NCBI GenBank assembly: GCA_028713535.1
Contig: JAQTOC010000005.1
Location: 1 to 55,339 of the forward strand
Length of the DNA stretch: 55,339 bases
Direction: 5' to 3'
DNA from: Candidatus Nanoarchaeia archaeon
GTDB taxonomy: Archaea; Nanobdellota; Nanobdellia; SCGC-AAA011-G17; JACPNG01
Shown here one piece after another: positions 651-49,852 of this stretch; the first letter of the stretch is position 1; the number at the start of each line of letters is the position of its first letter. The notes beneath the pieces were generated by a model, which had not been told where the DNA came from, ran no database searches, and saw only the letters and a list, made by a program, of their open reading frames with translations. The translations under genes were made by a program, and so were the position numbers.

Positions 651-654
651 CTGA

Positions 655-3548
655 CCTAATTAGATCTTACACCAATAGATGGATGACTAGGTTCAAAACA
701 AAGATGAAGGGCGTGGCAAGCTACGAAATGCTGTGGCGAGGCGCATGCAGCCATTGAACCACAGGTTCCTCAATCGGACTTCCGAATTTAATCCAAAAGG
801 ATGTACAACGCAGAGAACTGAAACGTCTTAGTACCTGCAGGAAGAGAAATCAATCGAGATTCTGTTAGTAAGAGCGACCGAAAACAGATGAGAGCAAACC
901 GAATCCTTTGCAGAAATGTAGAGGACATGTGGGGTTATAGGACTCATATAAGGTCTTCGATGGTGATCTGAATTTCTCTGGAACGAGAGACCTCAGAGGG
1001 TGACAGTCCCGTAAGTTAAACCATAAAGATTTTTTGAGTATCCTGAGTACCACTCATTGACTTTTGAGTGGGAATTTGGGAGACATCAACTTCCAACTCT
1101 AAACATGTTTTGAGACCGATAGCATATAGTACAGTGATGGAACGTTGAAAAGCACTCTTGGTCGAGAGTCAAAAGACCCTGAAATCTATTGGTATGGTGA
1201 GATACAGTTCTTCGGAACCGTATCGTACGTTTCGAATAACGTACCAGGGAGTTTATCTAAGTGGCAAGGGTAAAAACAAAAGTTTGTACCCGTAGCAAAA
1301 GCGAAACCCCGCAGCTTGCAAGGGGGGAGGTATGAAAGTGCCTTAAGTCACTTGGGTATGACCAGAAACCGGACGATCTATTCCTGGGCAAGGCGAAGCG
1401 GAGTTAATCCTTCGTGGAGGCCTGTAGCGGTATTGGGTGCATCCATTCGTGTGATCTGGGAATAGGGGTGAAAAGCCAATCGAGTTCGGTAATAGCTGGT
1501 TCCTGCCGAAATAGGCCGAAGTCTAGTCTTAAGTACGATAGTTTAGGTGGTAGAGCTACGGATTAAGAATTTAGGGGGAGAAATCCCTCGGTTCTTTGTC
1601 CAACTCCAAATGCCTAAACATCTTAGCTTAGGAAACAGCGTTACGCGGTAAACGTGTAATGCAAGAGGGGAACAGCCCAGACTATGATTAAGGTCCCAAA
1701 GTGTTGATTAAGTGTTAAAGGGTGAAAGGTGTTTATTTTCTCAGACAGCTGGGAGGTTGGCTTAGAAGCAGCCATCCTTTAAAGAAAGCGTAATAGCTCA
1801 CCATTCAAGAGAGTATGCCCTGAAAATGGACGGGACTAAATTAACCACCGATATCATAGACCATCCGAAAGATGTGTGGTAGGCAGGTGCTTGGCTAGGG
1901 CAGAAGCTTTTTCATGAGAGAAAGTGGACCTGGCTAAGATAAGAATCCTGGTGGTAGTAAGATCTGTTTAGGGTAAGAATCCCTAATACCGAAAGGGCAA
2001 GGGTTCCTCAGCAATGTCAATCAGCTGAGGGTAAGTCGGTCCTAACCTAGTTCATAACTTGACGCTAGGGAAGGGGAAAAAGGTTAAGATTCCTTTACTA
2101 TTTGAGTACCCGGCAACGAAAGTCTATTTTCTGACGCTTTGGGTTAAGCTTTTATTCCTCGTCTGGAATATTAACAAAGATAAATCAGGGGAGTATTGTA
2201 ACAATGAGATCCTGATTAAATTTGGGAGCTAGCAATAGTTAAGCTAACACCTAGAGTCCATGAAAAGGAAAATAGAAAGAATCTTGAATAACCGTACCCA
2301 GAACCAGCACTGGTGCCCAAGGTGAGAAGCCTAAGGTATGAGGGAATAAACCAACTTAGGGAATTCGGCAATTTAGCCCCGTGTCTTCGGTATAAGGGGT
2401 CCCTGCGCTTGTTGCTTTATGCTGCGAGTACAGGGTGCAATTACAAGGGAGGCCCGACTGTTTAATAAAAACGTAGCCGTCTGCTAGCCAGTAATGGTTT
2501 GTATAGGCGGTGATGCCTGCCCAGTGCTAGTACTTCAAACTTCCTTTCAAGGGGGCCAAGAGCTAGTAAACGGCGGGAATAACTATAATTCTCTTAAGGT
2601 AGCGAAATGCCTTGTCGTTTGATTGACGACCTGCATGAATGGCATAACGAGCCCTCCTCTGTCCCAAGTTGGAGTCCCCTGAACACACCCTTCTGGTGCA
2701 AAGGCCAGAGATTCCTAGTGGGAAGCGAAGACCCCGTTGAACTTTACTGTAGCTTGTTGTTGTAGTGTGAGTTGCTCTGTGCAGAATAGGTAGCAGTCGC
2801 TAAGACTTAAACGCCAGTTTAGGTATAGACAAAAAGTGAGATACTACCCAAAGCGATTTACATTACTCACTTACATAAGTTGTGAGGACAGCAGCTGGCA
2901 GACAGTTTGGCTGGGGCGGCACCCCGTTGAAAAGATATCAATGGGGCCCGAAGGTAAGCTCAAGAGGTTTAGAAATCCTCTGTAGAGTGCAAGAGCATAA
3001 GCTTGCCTGACTGGATTCTTAAGAGTATAGAATTCAGGAACGAAAGTTTGGTCTAGCGAACCCCTGTGTCCTCTTTGATGGGGGCCAGGGCTGACAGAAA
3101 AGCTATCACGGGGATAATTGAGTCGTAGCGCCTAAGAGCTCAAATCGACGGCGCTGCTTGCTACTTCGATGTCGGCTCTTCCTATCCTGGGCGTGCAGAA
3201 GCGCCCAAGGGTGAAGGTGTTCACTTATTAAAAGGAATCGTGAGCTGGGTTAAGTACGTCGTGAGACAGTACGTATGATATCTACTAGGAATGTTCAATG
3301 TCTAACAGGAAGGATCCTCTAGTACGAAAGGAACGGGGAATCGGTGCCACTGGTGATCGGTTATCTGACAAGGTAGGCCGAGCAGCTACGCACTAAGGGA
3401 TAAGTGCTGAAAGCATCTAAGCACGAAACCCGCCTGGAAAAGAGACACAGAACACCCGTTATAAGACGGGTTTAATGGGAACGGGATGTAAGGACTAAGG
3501 TAACGAGGTCTTCAGTCTGCGTTTTCCAACAGTTCGACTTTAATTAGG
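655..3548 (+). rRNA. 23S ribosomal RNA (complete, ends approximate)
   Basis: Conserved 23S blocks (GGATGACTAGG, GTAACTATAATTC-like AATAACTATAATTCTCTTAAGGTAGCGAAATGCCTTGTCG, GGGGATAATTGAGTCGTAGC, AGTACGAAAGGAACGG); terminal CCTAATTA/TAATTAGG pairing. Confidence 0.95.
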
Positions 3549-3551
3549 TTT

Positions 3552-7007: not shown

Positions 7008-7321
7008 TAGGGAAGATACCTAACTTTCGGTTTTAAACTGAGGAAAGTCCGTCCACCAATATCGGTTGCTTCCATCTGGAAGTTCGAGAAATCGAAGGCA
7101 ACCGCTCAGAAACGGCACGGCCTGTTTCCGCCAAAGATGTGGCTGAGAAGGTTATTGGCAACAAGAACCAAGTTAACCAGCTGAATAGGTTGCAGGATAC
7201 GTTGAAACGGCGAGTCCCGACTGGTGCAAGTTCGAATGAACGCTAAGTTGAATGTTAGACAGATGATCGCCAAACAATGTTTGGTTTGCATCTGACAGAA
7301 GACGGCTTATTTCTTCCCTAC
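7008..7321 (+). ncRNA. rnpB: RNase P RNA
   Basis: GAGGAAAGTCCGTCC (CR-I), AGACAGATGATCG (CR-IV), ACAGAAGACGGCTTAT (CR-V), and closing P1 helix GTAGGGAAGA/TCTTCCCTAC. Confidence 0.95.
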
Positions 7322-32580: not shown

Positions 32581-32988
32581 TCACTTTCTTGTTTCAGAAT
32601 AAACCAACAAGAACAGAGCCAAGACAATATAACAGTCAGCGAAATTAAAAACATACCAGAACTTAAAATTAATAAAATCAACAACAAATCCATAAATAAT
32701 TCTGTCTATTAAGTTTCCTATTAAACCAGAAATCAATAAGATTAAAGCAAATTTTATATTTGATTTTTTCTCCTTTATAAACCAGAATATGATAAGAGAA
32801 AGGATAATAAGACTTAGAATAATAAATACCAAGTTATTCCCTTTAAACAATCCAAACAAAGCCCCTGTGTTTGTAACCCGTTCCAGAGAAAAAAAGCTAA
32901 AAACTTTAATTTCCTTCTTTACTAATAATTTAGTTATCTGATCAAGCAGAATAAGACCAAAACCAATTAAAAAATATTTTTTATTCAT
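32581..32988 (-). CDS. lspA: Lipoprotein signal peptidase (LspA)
   Basis: LDQITKLLV, TNTGALFG, LIGNLIDRIIYGFVVDFI, FNFADCYIV motifs, four TM segments. Confidence 0.93.
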   Translation of the reverse strand: MNKKYFLIGFGLILLDQITKLLVKKEIKVFSFFSLERVTNTGALFGLFKGNNLVFIILSLIILSLIIFWFIKEKKSNIKFALILLISGLIGNLIDRIIYGFVVDFINFKFWYVFNFADCYIVLALFLLVYSETRK

Positions 32989-33485
32989 GTCTCTATCTTC
33001 AAGAAAGCTTTCATATTGCCTAGGAAATCATAAACTTCGTCTGCGAATTCATCTTTGTATCTCATAAACTTGCCTGCAACAACAATCTTGTCATAAACTT
33101 CTCTTATGAATCTTGCCAGGAAGTTAGCCTCCCAGATTTCCTCATAATCTTTATGCAGATAACACTCAATCTTAATTTTTATGTCGCCCCTGTAAGTATA
33201 ACGGTCGTGCTCGTCCTTTATTTTTTTAAGATTCTTGAACTCTAAGTTTGCTTTAAACTGGAACTTAATATAGTCGTCTATTTTCTTGAATGATCTCCAT
33301 TTGATTAATGTCTGTTTTGCCTGTTCCTTTTCGTCTGTTGTTTTTTCTGTATACAGTTTTTCCAAGAATTCATAACCATGGTCATAAAACCATTTCTGGC
33401 CCATTCTATAAAGTTCAGGCAGGTTTACAATAGCATCCTGCTTTTCCAAAACCAAATCCCTGACTACATAGTCTTTTTCAGACAT
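32985..33485 (-). CDS. Hypothetical, paralog 1 of tandem triplet
   Basis: DDYIKFQFKANLEF..GDIKIKIECYLHKDYEEIWEANFLARFIREVYDK; 4-nt overlap with lspA. Confidence 0.8.
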   Translation of the reverse strand: MSEKDYVVRDLVLEKQDAIVNLPELYRMGQKWFYDHGYEFLEKLYTEKTTDEKEQAKQTLIKWRSFKKIDDYIKFQFKANLEFKNLKKIKDEHDRYTYRGDIKIKIECYLHKDYEEIWEANFLARFIREVYDKIVVAGKFMRYKDEFADEVYDFLGNMKAFLKIET

Positions 33486-33523
33486 ATTATTCCCCTTATG
33501 ATTTAACTATTAAAATCTTTTGG

Positions 33524-34072
33524 TTAACCCATTGGCGATTGGATATGTTGTTCCATCCAGTCCCTTATAAACTTCTGAAGATTCATAAATTTCCTACGTA
33601 ATTCCTCTTCGTGGTCTTCAACCTCTTTCTTCATGATAAATCTTTCCCATAAATCCTGCATCCATTTAAATCCCCAAGGAGTTCCTTTGGTAAGTTTGGT
33701 ATAATCCTTTTCAATCCATGCAGTCATCCTGATTTCAAAGTCTCCCTTGTCCTTTTTTAATTTTTTGCCATCAACAATAACCTCTACTTTGGTGATTGCA
33801 ACCAACAGCCATATAAGTTCAATCTTGTAAGTTATATATGGATTTGCCTTTTTTGTAGCCATCCATTTAATATCTATATTAACAAAACCCCCTTCTTTGA
33901 AAGCGTGTTTATAGTACTCTTCATCAAAGAGTTTCCCTCCGCTTTTGCCTTCAGAATAACCCTCAAAGTCAAGCCATCTCTTTACACACTTATAGAACTC
34001 TTTGAGTTCCATAACTCCAACCATCCTCGACCTTGCATTCTGTGCAATATACCTTTTTTCAACTAGTGCCAT
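33524..34072 (-). CDS. Hypothetical, paralog 2 of tandem triplet
   Basis: NPYITYKIELIWLL..KGDFEIRMTAWIEKDYTKL..FKWMQDLWERFI. Confidence 0.8.
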   Translation of the reverse strand: MALVEKRYIAQNARSRMVGVMELKEFYKCVKRWLDFEGYSEGKSGGKLFDEEYYKHAFKEGGFVNIDIKWMATKKANPYITYKIELIWLLVAITKVEVIVDGKKLKKDKGDFEIRMTAWIEKDYTKLTKGTPWGFKWMQDLWERFIMKKEVEDHEEELRRKFMNLQKFIRDWMEQHIQSPMG

Positions 34073-34083
34073 CTAAACCCCTT

Positions 34084-34620
34084 TTAATAAAATAATCCCA
34101 AACTGTCTTTTATCATCCCTTTTACAGTCTCAAATTCTATAAATAATCCAGTTTCATAATATTTGTCTATCCTCCATTTAATAAGATACCAGTGATAAAA
34201 ATTATGGAGTTTTCTTGCAAACTTTGTTCTTTTCCATTTATTCTGGTAATCCAGTAGTAAATATGCCTTAAGTGAGAGTTCCAGCTTGCCCTTAGTAAGA
34301 GTCTTGCCTTCATAATTAACCTTTGATGCATGAGTAACATAAAATATGAATTCAAGGTGATACTGGACATAGTCATCAACTTCCTTTTTAGCCCTGAACT
34401 TAACCTCTACGTCATCCCCTCTGTCTTTTTTCTTTGTGGTATTATCATATTCCTCAATATCATAAGTTTTAGATCTTAGAAATGCCCATATCTCTCTGTA
34501 TGCTTTTTCGAGGTCGAACATACCTTCTATTCGATACTTCCACCCCTGTTTTTGACTTATAGTTCTTTTAAAGCCCCAGTCTCCGGGCTTTAACATCTGA
34601 AGATAACCCATGTATTTCAA
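34084..34620 (-). CDS. Hypothetical, paralog 3 of tandem triplet
   Basis: DDYVQYHLEFIFYV..KGKLELSLKAYLLLDYQNKWKRTKFARKLHNFYHWYLI. Confidence 0.8.
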   Translation of the reverse strand: MKYMGYLQMLKPGDWGFKRTISQKQGWKYRIEGMFDLEKAYREIWAFLRSKTYDIEEYDNTTKKKDRGDDVEVKFRAKKEVDDYVQYHLEFIFYVTHASKVNYEGKTLTKGKLELSLKAYLLLDYQNKWKRTKFARKLHNFYHWYLIKWRIDKYYETGLFIEFETVKGMIKDSLGLFY

Positions 34621-34660
34621 AAATATTCGTTAATTAATAAGGATTTCGGTTATGAAAAAA

Positions 34661-34668
34661 TTTATAAA
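34661..34668. promoter_or_regulatory. Palindromic TATA-like box in divergent intergenic region
   Basis: TTTATAAA, ~40-45 nt from both start codons (34620 minus, 34706 plus); A-rich BRE-like on the plus side. Confidence 0.5.
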
Positions 34669-34705
34669 ACATGGTTTACTCTAATTATTAACCAAGAGGT
34701 GAAAA

Positions 34706-36208
34706 TTGGCTGAAAGTAAACCATCAAAAAAACCAAAAGAAACTTTTTTCTCAAAGTTATTGAAAACAGAAAAAAAAGAGGAAAAGAAGGAAGTTAAAAA
34801 AGAAGGCCTTCTCGGAGAAGAAATAAAAAAATTTAATTTGATAGTAGAAGATCCTAGTAAAGGTGTAGAAGAAGTTTATTTCTGGTTTTTAAATTTCGCA
34901 AGGGATAACCTTCATTTTGATGTTGAAAAGACTTCAGATCTATTTACAGCTACAGAAGCTTCCAGCTTTTTTGGTGATTTGTTTGCAAGGAGATCTCAGT
35001 TGCAGGAAAAAGTTGCTAACTATATGGGCTTGATTGCAAACATGTCCAAGAGTTTATTCCAGATTATCAGAGAGATAAGGATCATCAAAGAGAGGTTAAG
35101 TTACTATGAGGATGCAAAAAAGTATCATTCAAGTGATCCAAAAGAGAAGGAAGCAGGAGATGCAGCAGAAATTGCCCTTAAGTCAATCTGGGTAGATATG
35201 GTTGAGGGAGGGATCCAGAACGCGGGCTCTGTTTATGGTATAGCAACAAAAGTTGGTTTCCATACGCTTCCAGACTTCTTCTTCAGAGTCCATGCCAAGG
35301 ATAAAGATTCAGTAGGAAAAGTGGTTAACAGCCTTGAGGGAATAAACAAAAAGTTAAAAGAAGTTTTGGAGAGAAAATTATACCAATACTATGTATGGAA
35401 AGAAAGAACCTACCAAGAGTTAAAAACAAGAGAAAAGTTTGCATTAAAGTATCTGAGCCAACAGCACGATGCAATGAGATTATATACTTCCTGGATAAAA
35501 CCCTACTTAAGGACAATAAATAAATTGGACCTAGGATCAGGTAAGGGATTTTCAGTTACAGATCCAGATTTAGTTACTGCATTTGAGACCTCAAAGATAC
35601 AGGTAGAGCTTATACTTACCAAGAAAGAATTTAATGTAGAAGGTCCTTACGATATAGAAACAAAACCTTACAAAAATATCATGCCTGTAGTGCGAGTTGA
35701 ATTTATATTTTCATCACTCCCCAGCATGGTCTTCCACCAAAACTATCAAAGAGGGGCTGTACATGGCGGACTAAGTAGGGTTAAAGTTTTAGCTTATGCC
35801 CCAAAAATGGAAAATTACAAAGAATACATCAAGCAAAAAGAAGAGGAAGATTTTGAAATACTTAAATCCATAGATGCTACATTAGAATCCCTTGGAGATG
35901 AGCTAAAAAAATATCTTGCTGAAGCAGAAAACGTTTTTGCTCTCAAAGCAGCGGAAAAGGAAAAAGGAAAAGAAGTCAAAAAGGAAGATGGAGAACCTGG
36001 TCCATTTAAGGCCTTGGGAAAAGGATTTAAAGATCTATTTGGATTAATAGGCAGTGCGGTGCCAAAGAAAAGCAAAAAAGCAGAAGACGAAGAGTATGAT
36101 GAATTTGTTAAAGAAGAAGAAAAAAACGCTGCAAGTAAAGTGGTAGTAGAAGAAGGATTCAGGCTTTATGATTACTACAAGAAAAATCATCAGATGTTAA
36201 GCTGGTAA
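34706..36208 (+). CDS. Hypothetical 500-aa cytosolic protein, TTG start
   Basis: AGAGGTGA Shine-Dalgarno 4 nt before TTG at 34706; charged N- and C-termini; first gene of tight 4-gene operon. Confidence 0.8.
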   Translation: MAESKPSKKPKETFFSKLLKTEKKEEKKEVKKEGLLGEEIKKFNLIVEDPSKGVEEVYFWFLNFARDNLHFDVEKTSDLFTATEASSFFGDLFARRSQLQEKVANYMGLIANMSKSLFQIIREIRIIKERLSYYEDAKKYHSSDPKEKEAGDAAEIALKSIWVDMVEGGIQNAGSVYGIATKVGFHTLPDFFFRVHAKDKDSVGKVVNSLEGINKKLKEVLERKLYQYYVWKERTYQELKTREKFALKYLSQQHDAMRLYTSWIKPYLRTINKLDLGSGKGFSVTDPDLVTAFETSKIQVELILTKKEFNVEGPYDIETKPYKNIMPVVRVEFIFSSLPSMVFHQNYQRGAVHGGLSRVKVLAYAPKMENYKEYIKQKEEEDFEILKSIDATLESLGDELKKYLAEAENVFALKAAEKEKGKEVKKEDGEPGPFKALGKGFKDLFGLIGSAVPKKSKKAEDEEYDEFVKEEEKNAASKVVVEEGFRLYDYYKKNHQMLSW

Positions 36209-36210
36209 AT

Positions 36211-36681
36211 ATGGCAAATTTTGAAAAAGACATAAAGGAAATAAAATTAATAAGTAATCCGTTTGAAAGACTTGAAAGGCTCAATTCTTTGCTTAAACAA
36301 GAGATTGAGAAAGAGGAAGAAAAAAAAGTATGGAAAGAGATAGAAGAGACAAACAAAGAAATATTCCTCAGGTTTAAGCCCTGGACAAAAAAGGATGGTT
36401 TAAATGTAGAAACCCTTTCAAAAACAACGGCAATAGAAGAAAATAAGATTCCAAATCTTGAACATGTTGTCCGGGAAGAAGATGTAAGAGTTGAAAACCC
36501 CTCAGGCATAAAAGGAGTGGATTATGGAAAACCATTTAATGTAAACGGGATTTACCAGCCGAATATGTTAAATGAACCTAAAAAAGAGGAAACAGAATTT
36601 GGTTATCAGCCAAAAATAAATGATGCTGTATTAGATGAACAAAAAAAGAAGGAGGAAGAACTTAAAAAATACATTGATTAA
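36211..36681 (+). CDS. Hypothetical, low-complexity charged protein
   Basis: 2-nt gaps to both neighbours. Confidence 0.75.
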   Translation: MANFEKDIKEIKLISNPFERLERLNSLLKQEIEKEEEKKVWKEIEETNKEIFLRFKPWTKKDGLNVETLSKTTAIEENKIPNLEHVVREEDVRVENPSGIKGVDYGKPFNVNGIYQPNMLNEPKKEETEFGYQPKINDAVLDEQKKKEEELKKYID

Positions 36682-36683
36682 AA

Positions 36684-38456
36684 ATGTCAGATTTTAATTC
36701 TGGTTATTGGCACGCATTGGACAAGGAAAGGCCAGTCGTAAAAACTTCTAACATAGGCTATACTACCTCTGGGATAAAAGATCAGCTTGAAGAATTAAAA
36801 GCTAAGATATTTACAGGAGCATCGCATATTGAACTTGGATTTTCAGGAGTTGGTAAGGGAAGCATTGCCGGAGGTAAAGTAACTCCTGGATTATTTGGAA
36901 AAGATCAAAGAGAGGAAATGAGGCAGCTTTCTAAAATCAATGATGTTACATTATCAACCCATGCAACAACAGGAGTAATGGGTCTTGCTGGGATGACTGA
37001 GCGAGGGGGTTTTAGTGAAAACATGAGGAGAAATGCCCTCGACGAAATAAAGCAGGCAATTGAGTTTAATGCAGATGTTGGTGGTAGAGCTGTAGTACTC
37101 CATGTTGGAGAATTCAACAGGCCTACAGGAGAAAGGGAAGCTGAAGGAAAAATAGAAAGAAAGGGATTTATTGATTATGGAGAAGGAATCCCCCAGACAC
37201 TAGTAGATTTAAGGAATGGAGAAACCGTATTTTCTTTTAACCTTAAAAGCCATTTCGAGCTCCCAAAAGTAGTGCAGGATGAAAAAACCGGACGCTGGAA
37301 AATCAGCCACGATACATTAAAGCCAGGAATAGATGATGAAACTGGTAAAATAAAGAACCTCGAACAATCAAAAGAAGATGTTAAAAGATTTCTTGAATCT
37401 CAGGTAACAATGAACAGAGGTCGTGCAGAACAGTATACAAACGAATATGAACATCTTAAAAAAAGCATTGCAAAGTTTGATAAGATGAGTGATGCTGAAA
37501 AACTTGATTTTGTTAATCATAGTAAGTTAGACATAGAAGATGTTTGGAAGCAAGGTAATCTTACTGAAGTATTTAAAAAAGCAAAGGAACTTTTGATAGA
37601 AAGAGAAAAAATAATTGAAGCAGAAGCAATAGGTTATGCCCATCAATTCGTTCAGTATGATGAACTAAAAAAGAATATAAGGACTGCAAAAGAATACGCT
37701 CTTGGAAAAAGTACAGATTCTATTGCAGAAGCAGGAATCCTTGCAATGAACCAGACAAAAGAAAAAGAATTAAAGGATCCGATATTTGTTGCTCCTGAAA
37801 GCATTTTCCCAGAGCAGTATGGAGGCCATCCAGAAGAATTAAAAGAACTGGTCCTAAAATCAAGAAAAATAATGGAAGAAAGACTTGTAAAAGAAAAACA
37901 TCTTTCAAGAGATGAAGCAAAAAAGAAAGCGGAGACTCACATAAAGGCAACATTTGATACAGGTCACGCTTATTTATGGAAAAAATATTTCAAAGGTACT
38001 GATAAAGAATTTGACAAGTGGATGTTGAACCAGGCTGATGATCTTATAAAAAATAAAATTGTCGGCCATGTCCACGTAACAGACAATATGGGTTATGCAG
38101 ACGACCATCTTCCTATGGGTGAAGGAAAAGTTCCCATAGAAAGATTCACAGAAATCCTCTCAAAGAGGGAATTTAAAGGTAATGTTATTGCTGAAGCAGG
38201 TGACCGGGATTATGGAACCGAACCTGCTGCTGCTTTAAGGGGAGCTTGGAAAACAATGGGATCCCCAATATACAGAGTTGATATTGAATCAGAGATTCCA
38301 ATTCCCCGTCCGGGAATGGGTGTGCGAAGAGGCCTTGGCTGGGTTGACATAGAGCAGTCTTATTTTGGAAGAACAACAGGCCCGACATATTTAGTAGGAG
38401 AAAAAATTGTACCATCAAAAGACTGGATATTCTGGTCAGAGGTACCATTGGAGTGA
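36684..38456 (+). CDS. TIM-barrel sugar phosphate isomerase/endonuclease IV-like protein with large insertion
   Basis: ASHIELGFSG, STHATTGV, RAVVLHVGEF, FDTGHAYL, GHVHVTDNMGYADDHLPMGEGKVPIERF, VIAEAGD motifs; ~200-aa helical insertion. Confidence 0.82.
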   Translation: MSDFNSGYWHALDKERPVVKTSNIGYTTSGIKDQLEELKAKIFTGASHIELGFSGVGKGSIAGGKVTPGLFGKDQREEMRQLSKINDVTLSTHATTGVMGLAGMTERGGFSENMRRNALDEIKQAIEFNADVGGRAVVLHVGEFNRPTGEREAEGKIERKGFIDYGEGIPQTLVDLRNGETVFSFNLKSHFELPKVVQDEKTGRWKISHDTLKPGIDDETGKIKNLEQSKEDVKRFLESQVTMNRGRAEQYTNEYEHLKKSIAKFDKMSDAEKLDFVNHSKLDIEDVWKQGNLTEVFKKAKELLIEREKIIEAEAIGYAHQFVQYDELKKNIRTAKEYALGKSTDSIAEAGILAMNQTKEKELKDPIFVAPESIFPEQYGGHPEELKELVLKSRKIMEERLVKEKHLSRDEAKKKAETHIKATFDTGHAYLWKKYFKGTDKEFDKWMLNQADDLIKNKIVGHVHVTDNMGYADDHLPMGEGKVPIERFTEILSKREFKGNVIAEAGDRDYGTEPAAALRGAWKTMGSPIYRVDIESEIPIPRPGMGVRRGLGWVDIEQSYFGRTTGPTYLVGEKIVPSKDWIFWSEVPLE

Positions 38457-38460
38457 TAAA

Positions 38461-39282
38461 ATGAAATTTGAAGTAAAAAGAAAACAAAGACAAAATCAGA
38501 TGTATTATCCAAAAGAAGATTTTGAGGTTGCAAGAAGATTTGCCAGGGAGATTTATAATGAATTTGGGGAATTTATTAAGGGTATTGTTTTATTTGGCTC
38601 TGCAACGCAAAAAGTGCATAAGCTTTCCACTGAAAAAGATGTTGATATCTTAGTAATAATTGATGATGTAAAATTCAGGATAGGCAGCGAGATTATACAA
38701 ACTTACAGGATTATATTGGATAAATTAATATTTAATATTGATCCTCATAAACTGCATGTCCAGACAATGACATTTACAAGTTTCTGGGAATATGTAAGGG
38801 CAGGGGACCCTGTTGCAATAAACATACTAAGATACGGGATTTCATTGATTGATACTGGTTTCTTTGATCCATTGCAGGAATTACTTGATCAGGGAAGGAT
38901 AAGGCCAAGCAGGGAATCAGTTTACACTTATTTTGTAATGGCTCCAGAAAGTATAGCAAGATCTAAAAGGCATTTGCTTGCTGCGATGGTTGACTTGTAC
39001 TGGGCAACAATAGATTCAGCACATGCTGCTTTAATGATAACCGGAGAGATTCCTCCAAGTCCAGAGCATGTTGCAGATATGCTTGACAAAGACCTTGTAA
39101 AAAAAGGATATATCTCAAAGAAATGTGTGTCTACCATGTCATCCATATATAAAATATTTAAAGACATAGAGCACAGAAACATAAAAGAGATTAATGGAAA
39201 GGATTACGACAGATATAAATATCTTGTAAGGGATTTTGTCAAAGAAATGCAGGGATTTATAGAAAATAGAAAAAAGATTTAG
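38461..39282 (+). CDS. Nucleotidyltransferase with C-terminal HEPN-like helical domain
   Basis: FGSATQKVHKLSTEKDVDILVIIDD (GS..DxD) then AHAALMITGEIPPSPEHVADML..KDIEHRNIKEINGKDYD. Confidence 0.82.
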   Translation: MKFEVKRKQRQNQMYYPKEDFEVARRFAREIYNEFGEFIKGIVLFGSATQKVHKLSTEKDVDILVIIDDVKFRIGSEIIQTYRIILDKLIFNIDPHKLHVQTMTFTSFWEYVRAGDPVAINILRYGISLIDTGFFDPLQELLDQGRIRPSRESVYTYFVMAPESIARSKRHLLAAMVDLYWATIDSAHAALMITGEIPPSPEHVADMLDKDLVKKGYISKKCVSTMSSIYKIFKDIEHRNIKEINGKDYDRYKYLVRDFVKEMQGFIENRKKI

Positions 39283-39833
39283 GCCGCGTCTAGAAGTGCT
39301 TCTTCTAGCCCCCCTCCACCAACTGTGTCCTGTTTAGCAGTCTGATATAAGATTTCTAACATTTTATCCATTAATCCTTCTTCTTTAAGTTCTTTTTTAA
39401 TTGATTCCTCTGTTTTTGTTTGATCAATCAACCTAAGAACTGTGTGGTATGGTGTTTCAGTGGGTTCTTTAGCTACTGCTAATAGATAATGTTGGTATTT
39501 TATACTATCAATTGTGTTTGCAATATATCTTCCCATAGACCCAGTTATTTTAGCAATCTGGTTTAGAACAGGTAAACCTTTACAATAAGAGTCAACAGTT
39601 CTTACTAGTTTTTCATAATTTCTTGAAAGATCTCCCATCCTAAGACCTTCCTTCCCAATCACTCCAGCCAGAACGTTGAAGGATTCCTCTTTAAACTTTT
39701 GAACATCTATTCTTTTGTTAATAAAATCTAGTCTAAGCTTTTCCAGAGGAAGTGTTAATTCGTTAAAAGTAAATTCTTGATCTTTACCATAGATCTCTTT
39801 GAATATCCCTTTTGTATCTTCATATGTTGCCAT
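39279..39833 (-). CDS. Hypothetical helical protein
   Basis: Complete ORF convergent with the NTase gene (4-nt overlap). Confidence 0.7.
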   Translation of the reverse strand: MATYEDTKGIFKEIYGKDQEFTFNELTLPLEKLRLDFINKRIDVQKFKEESFNVLAGVIGKEGLRMGDLSRNYEKLVRTVDSYCKGLPVLNQIAKITGSMGRYIANTIDSIKYQHYLLAVAKEPTETPYHTVLRLIDQTKTEESIKKELKEEGLMDKMLEILYQTAKQDTVGGGGLEEALLDAA

Positions 39834-48034: not shown

Positions 48035-49852
48035 TCAATAATTAAGCAGTATTTCTATATCTCTTCCAAACAGGGTTTTAAGGTCCTCAAATATGGTTTC
48101 CTGTATAAAAACATTTGGGGGTATTTTTAAGGATTTTAGGCTCTCCTCAAATTCTCCTAACGAACTTTTCCTTACATTTTTTATTCTCCCGTTGACAAGA
48201 TCTGCTTTGCTCATATCTTCCTTATTAGAGATATCATTTAGTATGAAAACAAATTTGTCCAATAACAAAACCTCTCCAAACTTGTCTCCGTACTTGAATC
48301 TTATTCTTACTTTATCCAGTTCATAGGATTTTTTCTTTTCAATGTACTCAACTAACAATCTTATGTATTCATTTGATTCCCTTAGTATCTTAATCATCTC
48401 TTCTCTTATGACATCTTTCTTTTTGTCATCAAATTCTTTTTTGATTTTAATAACATCTTTTAGTACTCCTAATAATTTGCTAGGCAGAATTCCTTTGTCA
48501 ATGAACACATTCTTAAGGTCTTTTTCTACATTGTTAATGTTAAATTTAACTCCCTCAAGTTCTAAAGCATCTTTTGTTACAGCAATACAAACATCATATG
48601 TGTTGCATAATTTCTCCTTGTCTGTTCTTTTCTCAATTTGCATAAACAATTTCTTTATTCTCTTAAGGTAATCTTCTGTGTCTTTTAATATCTCATCTAT
48701 CTGTTTTCCTGTAACGTCTTTTACTTTTCCATGCTCTATGTCCTTGTAATATTTTCTTATTCTTTCAAGCATATCAACATACTTTTTCTCCAGAATCTTT
48801 TCTTTCTTGACAAATAATTCATTCATTAATTTTACAGTTTCTCTCGGAGTTGTTGGTGGTATTCCGTATAGCATTAAAGCAGCCTGTCCAGGATTTAACG
48901 TTGCATAAAATAAGTCTTCCCCCAATATTCCCAATAATTTTCCTTTTGTTCTTTCTAAGAGCCTGTCCCCAATCTCCATGTTTAGCTCAATGGCTTCAGG
49001 GCTTGGTTTTATCCTTCCCATTTTTAATAATAATCTCCAGGGTAAGAAAACTCCTCGGTCATACAATGGAACACCATCTCTTAATAAAGTGAATATTACC
49101 TGGTTTGCATCCCTTAATGATTCCCAGAAATCAGTCAGAATGTATGTCTGGACGTGGAAGCTTGCCTCTATTCCTGAGATTTTTGCTGCACTGAATCCAA
49201 GGTTTTGTATTATTGCCCTTAACTTTGTCTTCAGTTCCTGTCTAGGCATTCTTTTTACATCAGTATCATCGATAACAATGAAAACATCAATGTCTGCAGG
49301 GTTTGCATCCCCTCTAAACAAAGAGCCGGCAGCGACGTAGCTTAAAACATATTTTTCAAATTTCTCAACAGTCATTGTCTTGTGGATCTCTGCTGTCTTT
49401 AAAGCTCCCAAAATTCCCTTGTCATAAACTATTGCAGACATTCCAATTGACTTTAATATGTCAAACTTTGAGTCAAAGCATGCTTCCTGCAGCGCAGACA
49501 ACAACATTGGGATCGTGTTAACGTTTTTATTTATCCCCAAGGCAATCTCAGCAACAATTTTTGTTACTCTTGCATTTAATTCTTCCTTCGGCATTTTTTT
49601 GCTGTCAGAATCGTCAATTAAAATAAATAAGTTAATAATGTCCTTTTTCTCTTTCTGGTTTTTATAAAAGTCATTTTGTAATTCTTCTGGCAGTTCAACC
49701 GGAAGCACGCACATCCCCAACACATACTTGTCAAACTTCTTTAGAATTTCTTTTTTTAATTTGTTTAGGTCTTTTTTAAGCTCTTCTCCTTTGTCTGTTT
49801 TGCTTGTAGAACTTTCAGAACTCTTTTGTTTGCTCATAAAGGTTATTTTCAA
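48035..49852 (-). CDS. Large nucleotidyltransferase protein (degenerate NTase + NTase + HEPN-like + C-terminal extension)
   Basis: AAGSLFRGDANPADIDVFIVIDDTD NTase motif; similar upstream segment INLFILIDDSDSKKMPKEEL; HEPN-like GQAALMLYGIPPTTPRETVKLMNELF..KDIEHGKVKDVTGKQID. Confidence 0.82.
   Translation of the reverse strand: MKITFMSKQKSSESSTSKTDKGEELKKDLNKLKKEILKKFDKYVLGMCVLPVELPEELQNDFYKNQKEKKDIINLFILIDDSDSKKMPKEELNARVTKIVAEIALGINKNVNTIPMLLSALQEACFDSKFDILKSIGMSAIVYDKGILGALKTAEIHKTMTVEKFEKYVLSYVAAGSLFRGDANPADIDVFIVIDDTDVKRMPRQELKTKLRAIIQNLGFSAAKISGIEASFHVQTYILTDFWESLRDANQVIFTLLRDGVPLYDRGVFLPWRLLLKMGRIKPSPEAIELNMEIGDRLLERTKGKLLGILGEDLFYATLNPGQAALMLYGIPPTTPRETVKLMNELFVKKEKILEKKYVDMLERIRKYYKDIEHGKVKDVTGKQIDEILKDTEDYLKRIKKLFMQIEKRTDKEKLCNTYDVCIAVTKDALELEGVKFNINNVEKDLKNVFIDKGILPSKLLGVLKDVIKIKKEFDDKKKDVIREEMIKILRESNEYIRLLVEYIEKKKSYELDKVRIRFKYGDKFGEVLLLDKFVFILNDISNKEDMSKADLVNGRIKNVRKSSLGEFEESLKSLKIPPNVFIQETIFEDLKTLFGRDIEILLNY

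Follow-up and report, generated by a model that had tools for sequence, protein, structure and literature searches.

A gene set conserved across Nanoarchaeota that probably forms one functional unit and may act on RNA 3′ ends

A set of genes retained, and often kept together, across the phylum Nanoarchaeota, whose members are very small symbiotic archaea, encoding three paralogs (A, B and C), a 500-residue protein (D500), a charged linker protein (E), a TIM-barrel protein (TIM) and two nucleotidyltransferases (NTase1 and NTase2), probably constitutes one functional unit. Our best explanation, held tentatively, is that the products may form a cytoplasmic multi-subunit machine, specific to the phylum as far as tested, for tailing or trimming RNA 3′ ends. 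The genes were analyzed in a stretch of 55,339 nucleotides, called the window below, from a Nanoarchaeota genome of 872,850 bp in 28 contigs whose named relatives are Candidatus Woesearchaeota, Pacearchaeota and 'Nanoarchaeia'. No part was found to carry transmembrane segments except LspA, the signal peptidase II encoded beside the set.

Open reading frame (ORF) calls place the genes in two facing runs, as the sequence-only reading had described. On the minus strand lie paralog A (34084–34611; 175 aa from its ATG, with an alternative TTG start at 34620), paralog B (33524–34072; 182 aa), paralog C (32985–33485; 166 aa) and lspA (32581–32988), whose reading frame overlaps that of C by 4 nt. The plus-strand run consists of D500 (34706–36208; 500 aa), which starts at a TTG codon preceded by GAGGTGA, followed by E (36211–36681; 156 aa), TIM (36684–38456) and NTase1 (38461–39282; 273 aa), and the ORF coordinates bear out an operon of four genes with gaps of 2, 2 and 4 nt. 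NTase2, a long paralog of NTase1, is encoded on the minus strand at 48035–49852, where it adjoins the gene for ribosomal protein L10e. The convergent minus-strand gene at 39279–39833, which closed the interval first proposed as the cluster, was rejected as part of the system since it occurs in just 2 of 41 loci. The start of the window carries a partial 16S rRNA (1–416), a 23S rRNA (654–3549) and an archaeal RNase P RNA (7010–7318).

Counted from their TTG starts, A and D500 lie 85 nt apart, and between the divergent genes is the palindrome TTTATAAA (34661–34668), about 40 nt from both starts. As a special operator it was rejected, being over-represented across the window, with 19 copies against 6.2 expected from shuffles. 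Because its frequency in the window is about three times the chance expectation, TTTATAAA is probably a general archaeal TATA box, readable both ways.

Gene order was compared in two samples, 41 loci from 20 families of the window's order and 59 loci mostly from other orders, with linkage counts restricted to loci with enough flanking sequence. Across the 41 loci of the window's order, lspA faces D500, and downstream of D500 come a charged protein that varies among loci, then TIM and NTase. TIM lies downstream of D500 in 26 of 31 loci of the window's order and in 28 of 34 loci mostly from other orders; the corresponding counts for NTase within 8 kb of D500 are 9 of 11 and 19 of 32. By genome-wide matches, D500 and TIM fall within 8 kb of each other in 49 of 57 genomes, and the fast-evolving, coiled-coil-like E family usually sits between them. 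Given the D500–TIM counts, the genes do not occur without synteny in related genomes, nor do all of them match well-characterised families. Outside the window's order, A, B and C often form a tandem array or are separated into A+C and B. They stand at the D500 locus in 2 of 35 such loci and are near D500 in some other families (loci L182 and L183), with D500–E–TIM–NTase1 adjoining, and A+C adjoin NTase2 at L194 and other loci.

The same counts bear on a plainer reading, in which these are independent housekeeping genes, their order kept by common descent and translational coupling, with no machine at all. Archaea commonly keep unrelated housekeeping genes in conserved neighborhoods, the neighbors here vary between orders, and A/B/C share the D500 locus in so few loci outside the window's order. 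We nevertheless consider this reading rather unlikely, as the D500–E–TIM order is kept although the flanks change completely between orders, A/B/C reappear near D500 in distant families and NTase paralogs are present at both loci.

Distribution searches were confined to the phylum Nanoarchaeota, and a contig profile search over all species covered the best 80 of 221 matches. D500 was found in 96 of 103 genomes of the window's order and in 352 of the 371 genomes of the phylum sample (236 of 243 high-quality ones). The A/B/C profile matched all 128 of 128 phylum genomes, with three copies in 77, four in 23, five in 3, two in 8 and one in 17 of them. TIM was present in 125 of 128, a few of these being weak matches to shorter TIM barrels, and NTase in 128 of 128, usually as two copies, the short one of the D500 operon and a form of 600–650 aa. 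The set is kept even in genomes of ~0.5 Mb. One record labelled Candidatus Aminicenantes, a bacterium, bears the archaeal cluster (L128) and is probably mislabelled or a mixed bin. In a genome that is 97% complete, the TIM ortholog (G049:C12:7294-9129) has five in-frame stops, indicating a decayed gene or an assembly error.

In order to resolve the relationship of A, B and C, a tree was built from 95 proteins of 49 genomes. It separated three groups, orthogroup A (27 genomes, SH support 0.56), orthogroup B (27 genomes, 0.88) and orthogroup C (41 genomes, 0.90), and no genome occurs twice in any group, so the triplication is older than the families sampled. Together with iterative HMM searches, the tree establishes the three as true paralogs, as had been claimed from the sequence. 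Neither A, B, C, D500 nor E gave a Pfam match above the cut-off, no NCBIfam family matched any of them, and PDB searches with the D500 and A/B/C profiles returned zero matches. The AlphaFold2 model of B (pLDDT 85.5) runs strand-helix-strand-strand-strand-strand-long helix. The model of D500 (pLDDT 81, pTM 0.64) begins strand-helix-strand and continues with long antiparallel helices (residues 87–274), strands and a long helix; its C-terminal part is helical.

Comparison of the whole D500 profile with A/B/C by hhalign gave no match. After removal of the inserted helices, the D500 core aligned collinearly with A/B/C (score 24.3, P 0.0034), a score reached by 1 of 400 shuffles, with the reversed profile at 13.2. 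Both carry a G-x7-A-[YW] motif where the last strand ends, and their predicted strand and helix order agrees. Among controls, GluRS against the D500 core scored 26.0 over just 64 columns (P 0.011), and the c16 profile against A/B/C scored 25.4, although c16 is compromised as a control by the D500 sequences that it had taken in. Because other profile pairs scored similarly, we grade the homology as suggestive; D500 is only probably of the A/B/C type, with a coiled-coil stalk inserted into it, and the two would then share a common core fold. The N-termini of D500 (34706–34900) and E (36211–36400) are alike in some families, such as at L071, both forming a short helical hairpin with an ERI.YLKELLKKIK-like motif, so that one profile crossed over.

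The earlier suggestion that the two runs encode parts of one machine finds support reaching far past the window, although the first reading as a whole holds only in part. What stands is the co-occurrence of the parts in the phylum, the D500–E–TIM–NTase linkage, the presence of A/B/C near D500 and of A+C beside NTase2, and the weak match of the D500 core to A/B/C. What falls away is a general role for LspA, any special regulatory function of the palindrome and the gene at 39279–39833.

LspA is an ordinary member of the signal peptidase II family (PF01252, E 3.8e-32; TIGR00077, 76.2 bits against a cut-off of 73.95) with the motifs NTGALFG, GNLIDR and FNFAD, and its sole oddity is its place beside D500 in one order. 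It lies within 3 kb upstream of D500 in 28 of 36 loci of the window's order versus 0 of 44 mostly from other orders, and it is present in 109 of 128 phylum genomes and missing from 19; on these grounds it was rejected as a general part of the machine. Lgt (PF01790; for example G000:C8:4803-5519) was found in 56 of 60 phylum genomes, and archaeal control genomes had neither Lgt nor LspA; the phylum has a bacterial-type lipoprotein pathway.

These observations matter for an alternative that we regard as improbable, an envelope or lipid machine in which A/B/C and D500 are helix-grip (START-like) handlers of lipids or lipoproteins working with LspA, with TIM and NTase as modifying enzymes for a sugar or a lipid-linked substrate. 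The weak Foldseek matches of B are indeed dominated by START/PYL/CERT/Ups1/PITP folds; the best of them has E 4e-3 and TM 0.24, TM-scores for B lie at ~0.2–0.3, and nothing fell below E 1e-3 for D500 against PDB or for B against PDB and BFVD. No SRPBCC model appeared in Pfam results for 21 A/B/C members. In the window's order lspA is divergent to D500 in 26 of 36 loci, and elsewhere a Kef antiporter stands upstream of D500, whereas lspA is unlinked outside the window's order. lspA is more often missing where a genome has a single A/B/C copy (10 of 17 versus 9 of 111; Fisher p 5e-6), but this co-loss mostly tracks the reduction of genomes within a few related families, which makes the test non-independent.

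TIM belongs to the xylose isomerase–like TIM barrels (PF01261, E 3.3e-18, 66.7 bits against a gathering cut-off of 31.1). Residues H93, H140, E372, D425, H428, H464 and E504 are invariant in 26 of 26 sequences, H475 is kept in 25 and D473 in 22, with His in the other 4. A tri-metal site of nine ligands is the pattern of endonuclease IV, and in the alignment TIM has all nine of these positions occupied, eight strictly or nearly so, in keeping with the earlier description of the enzyme as apparently metal-binding. Beyond the superfamily and the ligand positions it shares with endonuclease IV, TIM differs in its length of 590–800 aa, in the 223–336 aa inserted between H140 and E372, and in a C-terminal tail that is conserved. 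It gave no match to TIGR00587 (nfo), and in the same genome this model matches another, 275-aa nfo-like gene, itself under the cut-off. The nearest solved structure is MJ1311 (3wqo, E 6e-11), followed by D-tagatose 3-epimerases, and such relatives would argue against a nuclease.

A role in sugar or nucleotide-sugar metabolism was weighed, with TIM as an epimerase or isomerase, NTase acting on a small molecule and D500/A/B/C as a carrier complex. Besides the epimerase relatives of TIM, the resemblance of NTase to kanamycin nucleotidyltransferase would suit such a role. We think it quite improbable, however, since TIM keeps extra endonuclease IV–type histidines beyond the four epimerase ligands and the set is also retained where a genome is very small and encodes little sugar metabolism.

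NTase1 matches NTP_transf_2 (PF01909, E 6.8e-5, 23.6 bits against a cut-off of 21) and carries a HEPN-like helical tail fused in one chain. G46, D60 and D62 are invariant in 24 of 24 sequences and S47 is kept in 22 of 24; the call of a nucleotidyltransferase in the plus operon is thus upheld, and no third catalytic acid is evident in the aligned sequences. NTase2 has a degenerate NTase-like N-terminal half, a DxD-bearing second half, a HEPN-like part and a C-terminal extension. A CCA-adding enzyme was rejected, as neither NTase1 nor NTase2 contains PF09249 and separate tRNA_NucTransf2 matches lie on other contigs.

The NTP_transf_2 domain and the G + DxD motif are shared with MNT-HEPN systems and kanamycin nucleotidyltransferase, and the PADLOC candidate model PDC-S09 matches NTase (E 1.4e-6), which would fit a defense or toxin-antitoxin system built around this protein. 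MNT-HEPN pairs are two separate, adjacent genes of patchy occurrence, whereas here two ancient fused paralogs per genome are core genes, the nucleotidyltransferase and helical domain form one chain and 128 of 128 genomes carry it. The set occurs in practically every genome at stable copy number, unlike defense islands, and no other part matches PADLOC. A defense function, with near-universal occurrence and one candidate PADLOC model for NTase only, was therefore rejected as very improbable.

Returning to the RNA 3′-end machine, a mechanism can be outlined. A, B, C and D500 would be four curved-sheet proteins assembling together into a scaffold, to which D500 would add a coiled-coil stalk and E a flexible linker. 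From their motifs, NTase1 and NTase2, as pol-beta-type nucleotidyltransferases, would add nucleotides, and TIM, as an endonuclease IV–like multi-metal barrel, would hydrolyze phosphodiester or 3′-phosphate ends. The most likely substrates would be RNA 3′ ends undergoing tailing, trimming or repair. Both the physical complex and its substrate are what we infer from the parts, and that the substrate is RNA we hold with considerable doubt.

RNA 3′-end processing is the best single guess because RNA-related neighbors recur, namely dnaG, FttA, YhbY and TYW3. In several families dnaG lies downstream of the C ortholog (dnaG is near C in four, and C precedes it at L185, L186, L198 and L201), FttA precedes A+C in two genomes from a single family (L191 and L196), YhbY is the neighbor of D500 at about 20 loci and TYW3 adjoins NTase. 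HisRS and a YchF-like GTPase are further neighbors of A/B/C. Translation genes are, however, common neighbors in small archaeal genomes anyway, membrane genes are among the neighbors too (LspA and the Kef antiporter, the latter at about 35 loci upstream of D500), and no direct RNA-binding domain was recognized in the parts.

In the region of A/B/C and dnaG, an archaeal SRP RNA is close by in all four of L185, L186, L198 and L201. The gap between C and dnaG also holds a conserved element of ~75 nt with a GC-rich closing stem (GCCCGC...GCGGGC), at L185:5540-5850, L186:5255-5570, L198:4610-4870 and L201:4825-5180, and the element recurs in a few other places (L066:2179-2276, L152:2047-2144 and L188:7050-7147). 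It gave no Rfam match at the gathering score in the loci scanned and could be an H/ACA-like guide RNA.

The system as a whole matches no known kind, while two of its parts fall in known enzyme superfamilies. To our knowledge, the core genes particular to DPANN lineages are for the most part still without a functional assignment. Our literature searches, which covered the cluster, MJ1311 and Lgt in Woesearchaeota, produced no direct match and no description of the cluster as a system. Module 98 of Castelle et al. 2021 (PMC8204110) comprises 51 families, mostly of unknown function, widespread in Pacearchaeota and Woesearchaeota; the cluster's families resemble it as lineage-wide, function-unknown families of the same archaea and may be among them. 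The section of that paper on the module gives the 51 families without operon or structure analysis.

It is thus possible, though doubtful, that A, B, C and D500 as four paralogous scaffold proteins, the linker, the two nucleotidyltransferases and a multi-metal phosphodiesterase make up an undescribed core complex of the phylum, acting on RNA 3′ ends and with no counterpart outside it. The linkage, the three ancient orthogroups and the two parts with catalytic motifs bring isolated 'hypothetical proteins' together as a complex that can be tested. Cells probably depend on these seven or eight genes, kept in nearly all Nanoarchaeota, either to live at all or to live as symbionts, and if it is true that RNA is processed, the set would represent a lineage-specific RNA machine.
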